From an uncultured Flammeovirgaceae bacterium (lineage in GTDB: Bacteria; Bacteroidota; Bacteroidia; Cytophagales; Cyclobacteriaceae): 33,760 bases of DNA. The DNA is taken from assembly GCA_937883755.1 (NCBI GenBank), contig CAKZYA010000039.1, forward strand, positions 1 to 33,760. The letters run 5' to 3'. Positions 1 to 33,757 of the stretch are shown here, in pieces. Under the pieces are notes generated by a model, which was not told where the DNA came from, did no database searches, and worked only from the letters and a program-made list of their open reading frames with translations. Position 1 is the stretch's first letter; the number at the start of each line of letters is the position of its first letter. A program made the translations under genes and the position numbers.

Positions 1-383
<383 letters not shown>

Positions 384-24081: not shown

Positions 24082-24657
24082 ATGCCTGACCTACTTCAAG
24101 CCTGGAAAAAACAGTTACAACAAGGGAATACTGAGCCTCTAGCTATACTATTTACCAAGTTTGGTTCATCCTGTATTCGTAGCCTACAGCAAAAGGGGTG
24201 CAGTCTGGAAGATGCCGAAGATATTTTACAGGATGCTGTACTGATCTTCCGCCAAAATCTGATAGACAGTAAAGTTTGCCAGGCCGATAAGCTAAATAAA
24301 TACCTGTATACTATTTGTCTAAACCTGTACCGTATCCGGCGACGCCAGCCTATGCTAGAGGATATTTCTGAGGTGGTTGGTAAAGCAGTAGATCAAAATA
24401 GATCATCCATTCCTGAAGAAACTGTAGTGAAAGCTATGCAAGCATTTCGGCAACTTAGCTCCAAGTGCCAACAACTGTTAATTTCTTACTACGATCAAGG
24501 AATGCGCATGGATGAGATTGCCGAAGAACTTCAATTAGCTAACGCAGATGTAGCCAAGGCTACTAAATTCCGCTGTATACGCTGTTGGATTAAGCATCTG
24601 ACGACTCTATCCGGTAGTAATGTCCAAATAGAAGAAAAGAGCAAGCCGAATGAATGA
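24082..24657 (+). CDS. ECF-family RNA polymerase sigma factor
   Basis: A 191-residue sigma-70 family protein. Region 2 is seen in CSLEDAEDILQDAVLIFRQNL and NKYLYTICLNLYRIRRRQP, which would bind core RNA polymerase and the -10 element. Region 4 is SSKCQQLLISYYDQGMRMDEIAEELQLANADVAKATKFRCIRCW, an HTH for the -35 element. Length is normal for ECF factors. It overlaps the next gene, an anti-sigma-like TPR membrane protein, by eight bases, and that is followed at 26 bases by a TPR-CHAT protease gene. The context suggests control by sequestration and release at the membrane. Confidence 0.92.
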   Translation: MPDLLQAWKKQLQQGNTEPLAILFTKFGSSCIRSLQQKGCSLEDAEDILQDAVLIFRQNLIDSKVCQADKLNKYLYTICLNLYRIRRRQPMLEDISEVVGKAVDQNRSSIPEETVVKAMQAFRQLSSKCQQLLISYYDQGMRMDEIAEELQLANADVAKATKFRCIRCWIKHLTTLSGSNVQIEEKSKPNE

Positions 24658-25387
24658 AATGGACTATCTACTCATCGATAAAAAAATAGACGGCACCCTT
24701 ACCCCAGACGAAGTACTCCGCTTTGAGCGCAAGCTCGCCCAAGACGCTGACTTTGCTAAAGCGTATGAACTGCAACAAACTGCCATTGCCAGTTTGCAAC
24801 TTCAACAGCACCGTAAGCGTAAGACAGAAGTTCGGGCATTGTACGAATCGATAAAGGAAAAACAAGCTCAACGACGTAAACTTCAATGGTATTCGCTGGC
24901 TGCGGCCTTAGCTGTAGTAGTAATAAGTAGCTTGGCTTACATTACCATTGGTAGGTCGTCCTCGCCCGAAGCACTATTTGCCCAGTACTATACTCCTTAT
25001 CCGGTTATTTCTACCCGAAATGCCACTGATCGCAGTCCGACCGAACCTTCCGACAGTGTTCAGGCTATTCTGCGGTACGCTCAAGAAGATTATTCAGCAG
25101 CGATTCCTCTTCTAGAAGATTTATCTGAGCAATCCGAAAATATTCAATGGAAGCTTTTACTAGGGAATGCTTACTTGAAAAATAATCAGCATAACGAAGC
25201 AATTACCTCTTTTCAGCAAGTTGCGAGCCTCGCTGATCCAGTAGCCCAGCAGTACGGACGGTGGTACTTAGCCTTGGCATTGCTAAAAGTCAACCAACCC
25301 AAAGATGCTCAAACTCAGTTAGAAACTATTACCCAACAACCCGGACTCTACCAAACCCAAGCCCAAACTTTACTAGATGAATTGTAA
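24650..25387 (+). CDS. single-pass membrane TPR protein, likely anti-sigma factor
   Basis: A 245-residue protein. The cytoplasmic N-terminus (residues 1 to ~80) has the acidic-helical start IDKKIDGTLTPDEVLRFERKLAQD that many anti-sigma factors of Bacteroidota share (a D-G-x-L-x-x-x-E motif before a helix). One membrane segment follows at ~81-101 (AAALAVVVISSLAYITIG), then a periplasmic part of TPR-like helices (YAQEDYSAAIPLLEDL, KLLLGNAYLKNNQHNEAITSFQQ, LALLKVNQPKDAQTQLETI). It overlaps the ECF sigma gene, so its role as that sigma's anchor and inhibitor is inferred from position and N-terminus. Its long periplasmic TPR half differs from a minimal anti-sigma factor and could read an external partner. 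ATG 24650 is used; ATG 24659 is also possible. Confidence 0.8.
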   Translation: MNEMDYLLIDKKIDGTLTPDEVLRFERKLAQDADFAKAYELQQTAIASLQLQQHRKRKTEVRALYESIKEKQAQRRKLQWYSLAAALAVVVISSLAYITIGRSSSPEALFAQYYTPYPVISTRNATDRSPTEPSDSVQAILRYAQEDYSAAIPLLEDLSEQSENIQWKLLLGNAYLKNNQHNEAITSFQQVASLADPVAQQYGRWYLALALLKVNQPKDAQTQLETITQQPGLYQTQAQTLLDEL

Positions 25388-25413
25388 TCAAATAGCCTCT
25401 CAACCTACTAACC

Positions 25414-28400
25414 ATGAAATTAGGAATAATCTTTCTTACTCTATTGCCTCTGTGGGCAAACGCCCAAACACCCACTGATACCGTATTAGCTAATAAATAC
25501 TATGCCATTGGAGATTCATTAGGTAAACACGGTAAATACGATGAGAGTAATGCGTATTTTCAAATGGCGCAGCCTATTTATCAACAGGCAGAAGATTGGG
25601 CAAAATACTTGTCTTGCTATAATGTGATGGTAATCAATTTAATTGATATATCTGAGTTTGACTCGGCTTTACTTCTATCTCAACGTGTACTTACTATCGG
25701 ACAGAGGAGGCTAGGTAGTGAACACAAAGAAATAGCTGATGCCTATGAAAATATCGGTATCATTAATGAATATAAAGGCGAATATGATTTAGCTATAGAA
25801 TATTATCGAAAAGCTTTGATTTTGAAAATTGGCCTTTTTGGAAAGCGGCACCCTAATATAGCTAGAACCTACGATAATATTGGACTTACATACTGTATAG
25901 CTGGAAAATACGATTCTGCTTTGTTTTATCACCAAAATGCTTTCCACATACGAAAAACAGCATTAAAACAATTCAACCCATTATTAGCTATCAGTTATAA
26001 TTATATTGGTATAGTTTATGAAAGAAAGTGGGAACTTGATCGAGCTCTCTTCCATTATCTGGAAGCTCTCAAAATCAATAAGAAGCTTTTCGGAAATGTA
26101 CATCCTGACATATCTGCTAATTATAATAATATTGGTGTAGTTTATCAAAGAAAAAGAGAGCTTAATCAAGCATTGGCCTATTATCAACAAGCTCTCAAAA
26201 TTAACAAGAAGCTCTTCGGAGATATGCATCGTAAAACAGCTATTAATTACAATAATATTGGTATGATCTATGAAGAAGACAATAAACTTGACCAAGCACT
26301 CTTACATTACCAGCAAGCTTTCGAGATCAGTAAGAAGCTCTTAGGCAGAGTACATCCTAATACAGTTTCTATTTATAGAAATATTGGTGTGATTCATGAA
26401 AAAAAAGGAGATCTTGACCAAGCTCTCGCCTATTATCAACAAGCTCTCGAGATCAACAAGAAGCTTTTCGGATACGTACATCCCGAGATAGCTTATGATT
26501 ACGACAATATTGGTATAGTTCATGAAAAAAAGGAAGAACTTGCCCAAGCACTTATCTACTATCAGCAAGCCCTTAAGATCAATAAGAAGCTTTTTGGAGA
26601 CGTGCATCCTGAAATAGCTTATGATTACAATCACATTGGTGTAGTTCATGAAAAAAAGGGAGAACTTACCCAGGCACTTGCTTTTTATCAGCAGAGTATT
26701 ATGGCCAATCATGCTATCTTTGATGACACAATCACATCCGTTACTCCTTCATTAAAGGGGTATATGAATAGCTTGCTATTTTTAGATGCTCTTTTAGCTA
26801 AAGTCAATATGTTAAAAAAGATATACGAAAGCGATACCTCTTCAGTCTTATTTAACACAATACGGGCAACCAATCAGCTTTGTGATAGCTTGATTAATCA
26901 ATTGAGACAGTCATTTAAAACACATCAAGATAAAATAGCATTAGCTAAGAAAGCGAAACAAACCTACGAAGGGGCTATTAGCACTCATTTACTTTTTGAC
27001 TCTACATTTTCCGCAAACGAAACGGCGTTTTATTACGCGGAAAAAAGTAAAGTAAGTACACTAGCAGGGGTACTAATGGATTTACAAGCTAAGAAAATCA
27101 GTAATATTCCAGACAGTCTACTATCTCAAGAACAATCCCTGAAGGATCAGCGTAGTTTGCATCAATCAAAGCAACAGGATGCTTATCTAGAAGGAGATAG
27201 CTTACTAGCTCAACAGCACCAAAATGAGCTATTTACCGTTAACCAGCAGTACGATTCTTTAATTGAAGCTTTTGAACAGCAGTATCCCCAATACTACCAG
27301 CTAAAGCATAACAATGAGGTTATCTCGGTCGAGACACTACAAAACCAGCTTTCCCCTGAAACTGCTTTACTAGAGTATTTTATGGGCGATAGTGCTACGT
27401 ATGCTTTTACTATTACCAACAACAGTATTCACATAGCCACCCTGCCTAGCGATAGTACCCAGCAGAGTCAAATTCAGGAACTTCGCACTCTGCTAAGTCC
27501 AGAAGGCGCGGTTCAATTTAACCAGCAAAAGTACGAACAACTAGCTACTGCTTTATACCAAACAGTAGTTACTCCAGCATTGGATAGTCTTCCTACCTCT
27601 ATCACTAAATTGCAAATAGTACCTGACGGCGAACTAGGGTATCTGCCCTTTGAGCTTTTACTCACTGACAACACATCTGACGCAGATTATCGTAGTTTGC
27701 CTTACCTGATGCGAGACTACGTAATTAGCTATGGCTACTCGGCTACCTGGCTCTATCAACCATTTTCTCGGCGTGAACAGCCAGTCACCCAGCAGTACTT
27801 AGCTTTTGCTCCCAGTTACGAAAATGCATTGACTGATTCTATTCAGCTACTAGCAGTAGGAAGATTTCGCGATCAGGTACTTCCCTTGGAATGGAATCAA
27901 CAGGAGGCTAGAGCGATTGATCAGCACTTGTCTGGCCAAACTTACGTGGGTTTGGAAGCACAGGAGCGCTACTTCAAAAAGCAAGCTTCTCAATCTCAAA
28001 TACTTCACTTAGCCATGCACGCTCTGGTGGACGATCAAAACCCCATGTACTCCCGCTTAGTGTTTTCGCCTAATCCTAGCGACTCAGTAGAAGACGGTTT
28101 CTTGAACGCCTACGAGCTATACAATATGGAAATCCCTGCCGATCTAGCTGTGCTGAGTGCTTGCGAAACTGGTTACGGAAAACTAGAACGAGGTGAGGGA
28201 ATTATGAGTTTGGCTCGGGCGTTTGCCTATGCGGGCTGCCCCAGTTTAGTCATGAGTCATTGGACGGTAGACGATCAGTCGACTGCTCAACTAATGGGCT
28301 ATTTCTACGAGTTACTAGCGGACGGACTACCTAAAGATGAAGCCCTGCATCAGGCTAAGCTTCGCTTTCTGGATAAAACCAATATACCTACCACCCACCC

Positions 28401-28542
28401 TTTCTTCTGGGGCAGCTTTGTAGTGATGGGTGACACTTCCCCCATTACTCAACCGAACAACTGGACAGTGTGGTATTACGCCTTATCAATTATTAGCTTA
28501 TTAAGTATTACTACAGTAGTATACACCAGAAGAAAAGTATGA
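25414..28542 (+). CDS. TPR-CHAT protein (caspase-like protease)
   Basis: A 1042-residue protein. It has a signal peptide-like start (LGIIFLTLLPLWANAQ), then at least eight kinesin-light-chain-type TPRs of 42 residues (residues ~106-440, consensus HPEIAYDYxNIGxVHEKKGELxQALxYYQQALKI). A helical linker leads to a C-terminal CHAT domain (PF12770). The catalytic dyad is visible as His869 in LHLAMHALVD and Cys917 in LSACETGYG. Other CHAT motifs are GEGIMSLARAFAYAG and HPFFWGSFVVMGD. A C-terminal membrane helix (~1018-1036, YALSIISLLSITTVVY) would tether it. If the N-terminal signal is used, the protease domain would be periplasmic. The TPRs are near-identical at DNA level (~126-bp direct repeats). 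It overlaps the aroK start by four bases. Confidence 0.92.
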   Translation: MKLGIIFLTLLPLWANAQTPTDTVLANKYYAIGDSLGKHGKYDESNAYFQMAQPIYQQAEDWAKYLSCYNVMVINLIDISEFDSALLLSQRVLTIGQRRLGSEHKEIADAYENIGIINEYKGEYDLAIEYYRKALILKIGLFGKRHPNIARTYDNIGLTYCIAGKYDSALFYHQNAFHIRKTALKQFNPLLAISYNYIGIVYERKWELDRALFHYLEALKINKKLFGNVHPDISANYNNIGVVYQRKRELNQALAYYQQALKINKKLFGDMHRKTAINYNNIGMIYEEDNKLDQALLHYQQAFEISKKLLGRVHPNTVSIYRNIGVIHEKKGDLDQALAYYQQALEINKKLFGYVHPEIAYDYDNIGIVHEKKEELAQALIYYQQALKINKKLFGDVHPEIAYDYNHIGVVHEKKGELTQALAFYQQSIMANHAIFDDTITSVTPSLKGYMNSLLFLDALLAKVNMLKKIYESDTSSVLFNTIRATNQLCDSLINQLRQSFKTHQDKIALAKKAKQTYEGAISTHLLFDSTFSANETAFYYAEKSKVSTLAGVLMDLQAKKISNIPDSLLSQEQSLKDQRSLHQSKQQDAYLEGDSLLAQQHQNELFTVNQQYDSLIEAFEQQYPQYYQLKHNNEVISVETLQNQLSPETALLEYFMGDSATYAFTITNNSIHIATLPSDSTQQSQIQELRTLLSPEGAVQFNQQKYEQLATALYQTVVTPALDSLPTSITKLQIVPDGELGYLPFELLLTDNTSDADYRSLPYLMRDYVISYGYSATWLYQPFSRREQPVTQQYLAFAPSYENALTDSIQLLAVGRFRDQVLPLEWNQQEARAIDQHLSGQTYVGLEAQERYFKKQASQSQILHLAMHALVDDQNPMYSRLVFSPNPSDSVEDGFLNAYELYNMEIPADLAVLSACETGYGKLERGEGIMSLARAFAYAGCPSLVMSHWTVDDQSTAQLMGYFYELLADGLPKDEALHQAKLRFLDKTNIPTTHPFFWGSFVVMGDTSPITQPNNWTVWYYALSIISLLSITTVVYTRRKV
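25980..26690 (+). repeat. ~126-bp direct repeats encoding 42-residue TPRs
   Basis: Within the CHAT gene, successive units from about 25980 to 26690 share long runs such as AATAAGAAGCT and CAACAAGCTCTC in the same codon frame, every 126 bases. Such similarity implies recent duplication or gene conversion, so the number of repeats may vary between strains. Confidence 0.7.
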
Positions 28543-29042
28543 AACTCTTTTTAGTCGGCCTACCCGGTTCAGGAAAAAGCACGTTGGGGAAGCAACTGGC
28601 TAAGCGGCTTGACTTGCTATTTATCGATCTGGATGATGTTATTGAGGCTAAGGCTCAGCAGCCAATCCGAGAGATTTTTGCCCAGCAGGGCGAAGATTAC
28701 TTCCGTGAAGTAGAGCGAGAAGCCTTACTAAATACTATCTCGAAAAACTCAGATTTTGTAATGGCTACGGGTGGCGGTGCCCCCTGCTTTTTTGATAATA
28801 TGCTGCAAATGAACCAAGCGGGAACGACTATCTTTGTAGACACTCCGGTAGCAACCATTGCCGAAAGAATGAAAAAAGAGGGCGTTGCGGTTCGCCCTCT
28901 TCTCCATGAATTAGATACTAACAACTTCGCTGAGGCTTTCCACCAGAAGTTTGTCCATCGGCTACCACACTATCGGCAAGCCAAAATCACCGTAACTTCG
29001 GAAGAAGGCTTAGATGCTATTCTAGCTCAGCTTAGAAGTTAA
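28539..29042 (+). CDS. aroK: shikimate kinase
   Basis: A 167-residue shikimate kinase that phosphorylates shikimate with ATP in the pathway to aromatic amino acids. The Walker A loop is GLPGSGKSTLGKQLA (residues 7-21), followed by the shikimate-binding DLDDVIE (31-37), the EDYFREVEREAL segment with a binding Arg, and ATGGGAPCF near residue 75. The RPLL lid segment is near 120. Length fits AroK/AroL. Its ATG overlaps the CHAT gene stop (ATGA at 28539-28542), so it is probably translated with the operon. A housekeeping enzyme behind a sigma/CHAT unit is unexpected. It overlaps the 3' end of the porin gene by 11 bases. Confidence 0.95.
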   Translation: MKLFLVGLPGSGKSTLGKQLAKRLDLLFIDLDDVIEAKAQQPIREIFAQQGEDYFREVEREALLNTISKNSDFVMATGGGAPCFFDNMLQMNQAGTTIFVDTPVATIAERMKKEGVAVRPLLHELDTNNFAEAFHQKFVHRLPHYRQAKITVTSEEGLDAILAQLRS

Positions 29043-32224: not shown

Positions 32225-33703
32225 ATGGGTAAAGGAATTCCATCGCGCCAGGAGGACTATTCGGCCTGGTACAACGAATTAGTAAAGAAAGCTGACCTGG
32301 CTGAGCCTTCGGCGGTACGGGGCTGTATGGTGATCAAACCTTACGGGTTTTCTATCTGGGAAAAGATGCAGGCCGAGCTAGATCGGATGTTTAAAGAAAC
32401 TGGGCATACCAATGCCTACTTTCCGCTATTCATCCCAAAATCTTATCTAAGTAAAGAAGCCCAGCACGTAGACGGTTTTGCCAAAGAGTGCGCGGTAGTT
32501 ACCCACCATCGACTGAAAAACGCTGAAGATGGCAGCGGAGTAGTCGTTGATCCCGCTGCCAAACTAGAAGAAGAACTGATCGTTCGCCCTACTTCCGAAA
32601 CGGTTATTTGGAACTCCTACCGCAACTGGATTCAGTCGTACCGCGACTTACCGCTATTGATTAACCAGTGGGCTAACGTAGTACGCTGGGAGATGCGAAC
32701 CCGCTTGTTTTTACGCACGGCTGAGTTTCTTTGGCAAGAAGGACACACCGCCCATGCCACTGAGCAAGAAGCTGTGGATGAAACCGAACAAATGCTAGAA
32801 GTCTACGCGACCTTTGTAGAGCAATTTATGGCTGTTCCTGTTATCCGAGGACTGAAAACTCCTAGCGAACGCTTTGCCGGAGCCGTAGAAACTTACTGTA
32901 TTGAAGCATTAATGCAAGATGGAAAAGCTTTGCAGGCCGGAACTTCCCACTTTTTAGGGCAAAACTTCGCAAAAGCCTTCGATGTAAAATTTGCAACTAA
33001 AGAGGGAGGATTAGACCACGTTTGGGGAACTTCCTGGGGAGTTAGCACCCGACTGATGGGTGCATTAATCATGGCCCACAGTGATGATAATGGTTTGGTA
33101 CTTCCTCCTAAACTGGCTCCCATCCAGGTGGTGATTGTTCCCATCTTTAAAACAGAAGAGCAGTTCAGCGCTATCTCAGCGAAGGTAAACTCGCTCAAAA
33201 CTGAATTACAGCACTTAGGAATTACGGTGAAGTTTGACCATCGGGATACCCACAAGCCTGGCTGGAAGTTTGCCGAATATGAACTAAAGGGCGTTCCAGT
33301 TCGCTTAGCCATTGGTCCTCGCGACCTGGAAAATAATACAGTAGAAGTAGCCCGTCGCGATACCCTAACTAAGCAATCCATGGAAATGGACGACTTCTTT
33401 CCTCAGAAAATCCGGGATTTATTAGAAGAGATTCAGACTAATATTTACGACAGAGCTCTAAAATTACAGCAAGAAAATTCTCAGAAGGTAGACACTTACG
33501 AGGAGTTTAAGCGAGTACTGGAGCAAGACGGAGGATTCGTATACGCTCATTGGGATGGCACCGATGAAACCGAAGCAAAAATTAAGGAAGAAACCAAGGC
33601 CACTATCCGCTGTATTCCGCTTAGTGCTGAAGAAGAAGAGGGCAAATGCATCTACTCAGGAAAACCTTCTAACAAACGAGTACTGTTTGCGAAAGCCTAT
33701 TAA
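32225..33703 (+). CDS. proS: prolyl-tRNA synthetase (archaeal/eukaryotic-type)
   Basis: A 492-residue ProRS that charges tRNA-Pro. It is of the short type without the bacterial editing (INS) insertion. Class II motifs: motif 1 near [16 protein letters not shown], motif 2 [24 protein letters not shown], and motif 3 [20 protein letters not shown]. The anticodon-binding domain follows ([33 protein letters not shown]), with the C-terminal zinc-like domain ending KRVLFAKAY typical of the ProS-type 3 class. Bacteroidota commonly have this form. Full length and intact, start ATG 32225 ([16 protein letters not shown]). The stop is immediately followed by the octamer array. Confidence 0.97.
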
Positions 33704-33757
33704 ACTCAGGTGTTCAGGTGTTCAGGTGTTCAGGTGTTCAGGTGTTCAGGTGTTCAG
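33702..33757. repeat. perfect 8-bp tandem array (GTGTTCAG)6
   Basis: Six exact copies of GTGTTCAG run from 33710 to 33757, preceded by a partial diverged copy (ACTCAG) that starts at the proS stop. The window then ends with ATG, so the array or its flank may continue. The unit matches the consensus of the degenerate pair at 18018-18128. Confidence 0.97.

Follow-up and report, generated by a model that had tools for sequence, protein, structure and literature searches.

A sigma factor, an anti-sigma-like membrane protein and a TPR-CHAT protein encoded side by side in a Flammeovirgaceae genome: a possible periplasmic site-1 switch

What does a CHAT peptidase do next to a sigma factor? The question is raised by three consecutive genes in a stretch of 33,760 nucleotides (the window), which is a whole contig (CAKZYA010000039.1) of the 7.6-Mb genome of an uncultured Flammeovirgaceae bacterium (assembly GCA_937883755.1). 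On the + strand, they encode an extracytoplasmic function (ECF) type sigma factor (24082-24657), a membrane protein with tetratricopeptide repeats (TPR) (24650-25387), and a TPR-CHAT protein (25414-28542). The first two genes overlap by 8 bases (24650-24657) and a gap of 26 bases (25388-25413) separates the second from the third, as an earlier sequence-only reading of this DNA had described. That reading proposed that the sigma factor is freed when the CHAT protein cleaves its TPR neighbour. The comparisons presented here carry this further: the trio probably works by site-1 proteolysis, with a periplasmic CHAT protein cutting a transmembrane anti-sigma factor and so setting an ECF sigma factor free. 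Gene linkage, a conserved catalytic dyad and a covariation between the candidate cut site and one CHAT residue all argue for the cleavage. Because the protease and the TPR half of its putative substrate both appear to be periplasmic, a site-1-type cut outside the membrane is expected, unlike that of Csx30 by Csx29.

The 191-residue product of the first gene gives weak family matches on its own, below the curated cut-offs (Sigma70_r4_2, E value 6e-4; NCBIfam Sig70_bacteroi1, 9e-10). A profile made from 36 relatives matches solved ECF sigma factors (SigW, 5e-16) over profile positions 3-182 of 191, and the Pfam models find sigma region 2 in 17 and region 4 in 12 of the 36 family members. By these profile matches the protein is an ECF sigma factor with regions 2 and 4, which bears out its first identification. 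Two cysteines in its C-terminal part, C129 and C165, are invariant or almost so in the family.

The second protein (245 residues), here called MID, has an anti-sigma-like N-terminus, a single transmembrane pass and a TPR half, so that its earlier description holds as well. The predicted anti-sigma domain covers residues 1-79 (24650-24886), the core of the transmembrane helix, taken as the most hydrophobic 17-residue window, residues 84-100 (24899-24949), and the putatively periplasmic TPR part residues 135-245 (25052-25384), with TPR matches falling within residues 138-230. An NCBIfam anti-sigma model (NF052375) matches residues 15-108 weakly, at 22 bits against a cut-off of 100; the same model is matched by 20 of 37 MID family members at an E value of 0.01 or less, and zf-HC2 by 2 of the 37. 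In a single-sequence AlphaFold model, the N-terminal part forms helices at residues 3-14, 19-31 and 33-78, and the TPR part is confident. Between them lies a stretch (78-136) with a predicted local distance difference test score (pLDDT) below 50, which contains a coil at 113-134. The TPR half is conserved. As expected of a transmembrane anti-sigma gene, the MID gene directly follows that of an ECF sigma factor: such a gene is found directly upstream, on the same strand, in 166 of 181 MID genes. The mutual information between 161 paired sigma and MID sequences reaches a maximum of 0.351 versus at most 0.184 in 8 permutations, with shared ancestry also raising such values, and MID positions 40-80 hold 27 of the top 100 pairs. 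Together with the anti-sigma model matches, this lends indirect support to a contact between the putative anti-sigma domain and the sigma factor.

The third protein is the largest of the trio, with 1042 residues, and by its profile match (E value 8e-61, 206 bits against a curated cut-off of 24) it is a member of the CHAT peptidase family PF12770. The CHAT domain spans residues 709-1007 (27538-28434) and carries the catalytic residues His869 (28018-28020) and Cys917 (28162-28164). The protein begins with a stretch judged by eye to be signal-peptide-like (residues 1-17, 25414-25464), and ends in a hydrophobic helix followed by a positively charged RRKV tail (residues 1018-1042, 28465-28539). The architecture first read from this gene is therefore in place. 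The His/Cys dyad, whose conservation among homologues had been set as a test of the proposal, is kept in 85/85 CHAT proteins linked to a MID gene for which both columns can be read (86 aligned, the window's included), and in 19/19 held-out ones.

The recurrence of the trio outside this strain was a second such test. In all, 181 distinct MID genes were collected, chosen by MID similarity (9 came via CHAT searches). A CHAT gene was called linked if it lies no more than 1.7 kb downstream or 2.6 kb upstream of MID. One is found in 93 of the 181 cases, none is present in the flank read for 73, and 15 could not be assigned. As background, eight genomes of the window's own family, about 54 Mb together, contain 79 CHAT matches, and so by our estimate chance adjacency for half of the MID genes is implausible. 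In eight genomes of family f30 there are 11 CHAT matches, 9 of which adjoin a sigma/MID pair (L304-L312); of the other two, one lies by such a pair by coordinates (G647:C80) and one by a low-scoring MID-like gene (L271). The trio also occurs on plasmids. In the annotated records of Aureibacter tunicatorum pAT7 and pAT1, a sigma factor, a hypothetical protein (the MID) and a CHAT protein are consecutive, and a 3585-base locus from a member of the window genome's family (G013) is contained whole in pAT7. A looser case is Emticicia oligotrophica pEMTOL03, with the CHAT gene 2.6 kb beyond the sigma gene and three genes between them. The same-strand order that had been read as one operon does hold in the window, but it is a minority arrangement and cannot be generalized: 62 of the 93 linked CHAT genes lie downstream in convergent orientation, 27 lie downstream on the MID strand, and 4 lie upstream.

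The earlier reading left a topology problem, a signal peptide on the CHAT protein versus a cytoplasmic sigma factor, and hydropathy and charge counts offer an answer. An N-terminal hydrophobic stretch is present in 72/75 full-length CHAT proteins linked to MID, the three under threshold being L065 (whose start is miscalled), L335 and L336. At the other end, a transmembrane helix is found in 86 of 88 C-termini, and the tail that follows is net positive in all 86. In MID, lysines and arginines are more numerous before the transmembrane helix than after it in 82 of 89 proteins. These counts suggest that the CHAT domain is outside with its tail inside, and that MID has its N-terminus inside and its TPR half outside. 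Given the signal-like N-terminus and the C-terminal membrane helix, the protease would sit in the periplasm beside the TPR half of MID.

Where would it cut? The linker that follows the MID transmembrane helix contains a conserved segment, which often reads PYPN....R-[GS] or DPGL..M-[SG]. In the window it corresponds to the predicted cleavage segment at residues 123-129 (25016-25036), with Arg123-Asn124 and Arg128-Ser129 as candidate bonds within the low-pLDDT coil. When linked CHAT proteins were split according to the site type of their partner and their columns compared, the largest difference was at residue 831 (27904-27906 in the window), which is glutamate in 60/60 CHATs of the Arg type and in 0/25 of the Met type. 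Sorting by residue 831 alone gives the same picture: an arginine followed by a small residue occurs in the linkers of 61/61 partners of acidic CHATs (39.4 expected from shuffled linkers, standard deviation 3.6), and methionine followed by a small residue in 25/25 partners of non-acidic ones (17.4, standard deviation 2.2). Lysine followed by a small residue is not enriched (9/61 acidic partners, 15.6 in shuffled linkers). The rule that pairs Glu831 with Arg and a non-acidic residue with Met thus fits 86/86 training pairs. It was written down before 20 further loci, chosen by coordinates, were fetched. Of these, 19 contain a pair and all 19 fit, 13 with Glu and an Arg-small linker and 6 with a non-acidic residue and a Met-small linker; the twentieth (L363) has neither motif, and its 6.3 kb as fetched contain no CHAT gene. 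Among 200000 permutations of the held-out pairings, 56 fit equally well, or 87 of 200000 once two linkers seen before are removed. The plasmid pairs fit in 3/3 cases, the MID of pAT7 being L064, which was seen earlier and has both motifs. Over all 107 readable rows, residue 831 is the sole column of 268 with a phi coefficient of 1.0, followed by 954 at 0.82: Glu831 is present in 75/75 rows of the Arg type, and 32/32 rows of the Met type carry a non-acidic residue (L, T, A, V, S or Y).

The position of this residue would fit a role in substrate recognition. A review of clan CD peptidases derives S1 specificity from helix alpha1/L1, L4 and L5, and in published structures Asp163 of gingipain and Asp365 of MALT1 are the acids, at the start of alpha1, that accommodate a P1 arginine (PMC4357240); separases have an acid (D or E) at the gingipain position, as described in a modelling paper (PMC4626109). 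Glu831 lies 38 residues before the catalytic histidine and, by alignment, should be at the start of helix alpha1 in the S1 position. In one Craspase CHAT domain the residue opposite 831 is a histidine, in a hand reading of a printed alignment that is uncertain by a few residues; D543, three residues before that position, has been reported to be near the catalytic residues (PMC9729208). Craspases cut at L|D, M|K and A|S (PMC11106740); their P1 residue is Leu, Met or Ala, which would be in keeping with a non-acidic residue at the 831 position.

Several observations weigh against this reading. The linkers had been read before the site was defined, and the patterns were relaxed before the CHAT columns were compared. 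The first pattern missed three linked MIDs, two with Met-Asp (L322, L334) and one with Arg-Glu (L343), which the later patterns were widened to include, and L231 changes from Arg to Met between the first and the second pattern. The loose motifs also overlap: 10/25 Met-type linkers are Arg-small as well, and 9/61 Arg-type linkers are Met-small. Among the 19 held-out pairs, 4 (L344, L345, L349, L350) have both motifs and would have fitted in any case; the linkers of L344 and L345 had been read before the rule was written. Before counting, 8 of the 181 MIDs (4 linked, 4 of unassigned linkage) were dropped for a score below 100 or the want of a clear transmembrane helix, as were CHAT pieces under 450 residues or without the dyad columns. 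Among dropped linked rows examined afterwards, L057, L299 and L258 fit, L096, L186 and L271 are unreadable at 831, and L257, a low-scoring pair, breaks the rule; the four linked rows dropped for low score comprise two that fit, one exception and one unreadable. The second-best column, D954, gives way to E or S in two Arg-type CHATs of the held-out set, and by our own count it does not align with separase D2151. As for topology, two linked CHATs miss the C-terminal threshold, L335 with no helix and L231 with a weaker one, and the single-sequence AlphaFold model of the CHAT protein is unusable (pLDDT 34).

The relation between site and linkage is also imperfect. By the first pattern, the site motif is present in 86/89 linked versus 49/73 unlinked MIDs (Fisher test, 3.5e-7), a test that is weak alone, since the rows share ancestry, the pattern was drawn up with the data in view, and an unlinked MID could be served by a CHAT protein in trans. 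At least two of the 73 (L333 and L203; held-out loci L344 and L345) do have a CHAT gene about 2 kb away. Many MIDs without a CHAT neighbour keep the site in genomes that have CHAT genes elsewhere, which a strictly cis-acting pair leaves unexplained; a CHAT protein in trans or another protease is needed for them. Seven genomes without any CHAT match keep a MID. In 5 of the 7 MIDs read from these, no site is found by the loose pattern, and 2 are still Arg-small. One family (f13) gives a closer view: two MIDs beside a CHAT gene have the DPGL motif with its Met (L330, L331), and in three genomes without a CHAT match DPGL is kept and Met is lost (L324, L326, L328).

The alternative that survives best turns the relation around, with the CHAT protein as an output: the sigma/MID pair would control the expression of a periplasmic CHAT protein encoded next to it, which has targets other than MID. 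Sigma factors often control neighbouring genes, most linked CHAT genes are convergent and hence separately transcribed, and many CHAT genes have no MID gene near them. This account predicts neither the match between linker site and residue 831 nor the loss of the site residue in the CHAT-less f13 genomes, and we consider it unlikely. It is less likely still that the covariation reflects shared ancestry, the trio having travelled together and a non-acidic 831 having come along with the other linker motif on one deep branch. On a first quick tree the Met group takes 3 changes, on a larger one 4 and on a thinned one 3; a careful tree of 55 rows takes 2, and a single change is seen in none of 200 bootstrap trees. 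A single Met clade nevertheless passes the approximately unbiased test (p 0.98 and 0.35; in the former case the tree in which the clade is held together is likelier than the quick tree), so this test too speaks against our reading, and one or two evolutionary events may be all that underlies the covariation. Columns 954, 886 and 825 differ between the groups as well. Yet 831 alone is perfect among the 268 columns, with a chemistry that suits S1, and the Met group varies at this position without ever being acidic, while the Arg group always has glutamate.

A cleavage of MID by CHAT could also have another outcome, in which the released periplasmic TPR fragment is what matters, or the cut switches signalling off. 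Conservation of the TPR half would suit this, and the data fit either sign of the effect. Against this stands the anti-sigma-like part of MID, and the fact that anti-sigma cutting relieves inhibition in RseA/DegS and, as modelled in the Craspase work, in Csx30/Csx29; this outcome therefore has little probability. That another protease cuts the conserved linker with CHAT as a scaffold would account for the motif in unlinked MIDs, but is highly improbable given that no readable linked CHAT has lost the dyad and that the site type follows residue 831.

The site-1 model that we favour can then be proposed step by step. The N-terminal anti-sigma domain of MID would tether the ECF sigma factor to the cytoplasmic side of the membrane. 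The CHAT protein, as its recurrent topology suggests, would be exported and stay fixed to the inner membrane through its C-terminal helix, with the TPR array and the caspase-like domain in the periplasm. Some envelope signal would engage the TPR array, and the CHAT domain would then cut MID in its short flexible periplasmic linker, in this genome after Arg123 or Arg128. The covariation suggests that during this step Glu831 holds the P1 arginine in the S1 pocket. The trimmed MID would be degraded, probably via an RseP-type site-2 protease, and the sigma factor freed for gene activation inside the cell. M50 peptidases, of the site-2 type, have two matches in the window's genome, and likewise in all 14 control genomes. 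Since linker site and residue 831 covary, the proposal is testable residue by residue.

How does this compare to known systems? Proteolytic sigma release is of a known kind, and in Craspase a CHAT protease cuts a sigma inhibitor. As in type III-E Craspase (Csx29, Csx30 and RpoE/CASP-sigma), a TPR-CHAT protease, a sigma factor and a putative sigma-inhibiting protein are encoded in one locus; according to the authors' model, cutting relieves sigma inhibition there (PMC10028731). Unlike Craspase, the protease and its predicted cut site would be periplasmic and membrane-bound here. Craspase cuts after L, M or A (PMC11106740), whereas the predicted P1 residue here is mostly Arg and sometimes Met. 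The two also differ in their surroundings. A search of the window finds no CRISPR array, and the largest open reading frame listed in it is the 1042-residue CHAT gene. The gRAMP protein is larger than that. The earlier remark that neither gRAMP nor CRISPR is seen is thus upheld for the window; the remaining genome was not searched for Cas families.

A functional parallel would be the Sigma-E/RseA/DegS/RseP system, with a transmembrane anti-sigma factor whose cytoplasmic part binds sigma (predicted here) and whose outer half is cut by a membrane-anchored periplasmic site-1 protease (proposed here). In that system, the outer half of RseA is cut by DegS, which is a PDZ serine protease; unlike it, the candidate protease here is a caspase/separase-like CHAT protein with a TPR array. 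Another likeness is to the CHAT proteases that activate gasdermins, whose substrate is commonly encoded nearby (PMC9729208), except that the candidate substrate here is a transmembrane anti-sigma-like protein. With separase, gingipain R and MALT1, clan CD enzymes that cut after P1 Arg, the CHAT protein shares the His/Cys dyad and, by alignment, an acid at the start of alpha1; their substrates and other domains differ. Among the open-licence papers listed by searches for a published sigma/TPR/CHAT trio, those on Craspase appear and no other such trio does, nor does a CRISPR-free periplasmic CHAT protease for a transmembrane anti-sigma factor with a P1/S1 code such as the one suggested here.

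To our knowledge, few CHAT substrates have been defined outside CRISPR and gasdermin systems. For the CHAT proteins considered here, candidates can now be named for the substrate, the compartment, the cut site and the residue that sets specificity, all open to simple experiments. If the model is true, bacterial envelope signalling employs caspase/separase-like proteases, which fill the part played by DegS in E. coli, and a wider counterpart of the Craspase sigma switch exists without CRISPR. We also put forward a broader view, to which we would give slightly less than an even chance: CHAT proteins could be a widespread class of periplasmic site-1 proteases in Bacteroidota, with a P1/S1 code (Glu831 for Arg, a non-acidic residue for Met) that partly insulates paralogous sigma switches, and Csx29/Csx30 would be their CRISPR-captured cytoplasmic cousin. 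A code specific to each anti-sigma factor would allow many paralogous sigma switches to remain partly insulated within one cell.

The numbers of these genes vary widely. As a query, the window's MID alone finds a match in 40/59 genomes of a set of relatives, its own genome included; a MID profile matches 325/390 genomes of an order-level set and 259/295 of a class-level set, counts that TPR matches inflate. The window's genome has 8 CHAT matches. Among the 59 relatives scanned, two (G025 and G037) have at least 33 and 7 have none; other CHAT-rich genomes are G083 (26 matches), G137 (26) and G417 (29). A plasmid search with MID gave no matches, and a scan of genome contigs with the window's CHAT protein gave one distant locus only. 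No other recurring partner emerged for MIDs without a CHAT neighbour: the largest clusters formed by their two next downstream genes have only 7, 5 and 5 members, the 7-member one consisting of long proteins that by eye resemble outer-membrane receptors.

Shorter matches to the anti-sigma and transmembrane half of MID, with the TPR half unmatched, are found within a few kb of CHAT matches (L299; G028:C4:191575, G019:C34:10084, G019:C12:641352 and G028:C45:885), so that the partner family may extend beyond TPR proteins. Small genes also lie between MID and CHAT. Otherwise dissimilar ones have the motif G.[VI].DP in common (L066:4587-5015, L057:1022-1393, L071:8459-9160, L073:4427-4915, L081:4973-5128 and L091:4644-4829). 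It occurs in 6/618 same-strand versus 0/590 opposite-strand open reading frames downstream of MIDs, all six CHAT-linked, a post hoc count as the motif was first read off these genes. Two further small proteins from this interval (L067:8073-8441 and L070:4792-5202) are related, with 33% identity.

Within the window's CHAT gene, the TPR-coding part contains five 126-nucleotide repeats (25995-26624), the others being 71-75% identical to the first one, which suggests an expansion of the TPR array. The gene is followed by that of a shikimate kinase (28539-29042), with a 4-base overlap. Finally, both ends of the window (1-70 and 33698-33753) are made of short tandem repeats with 7-base and 8-base units, and are probably assembly breaks.

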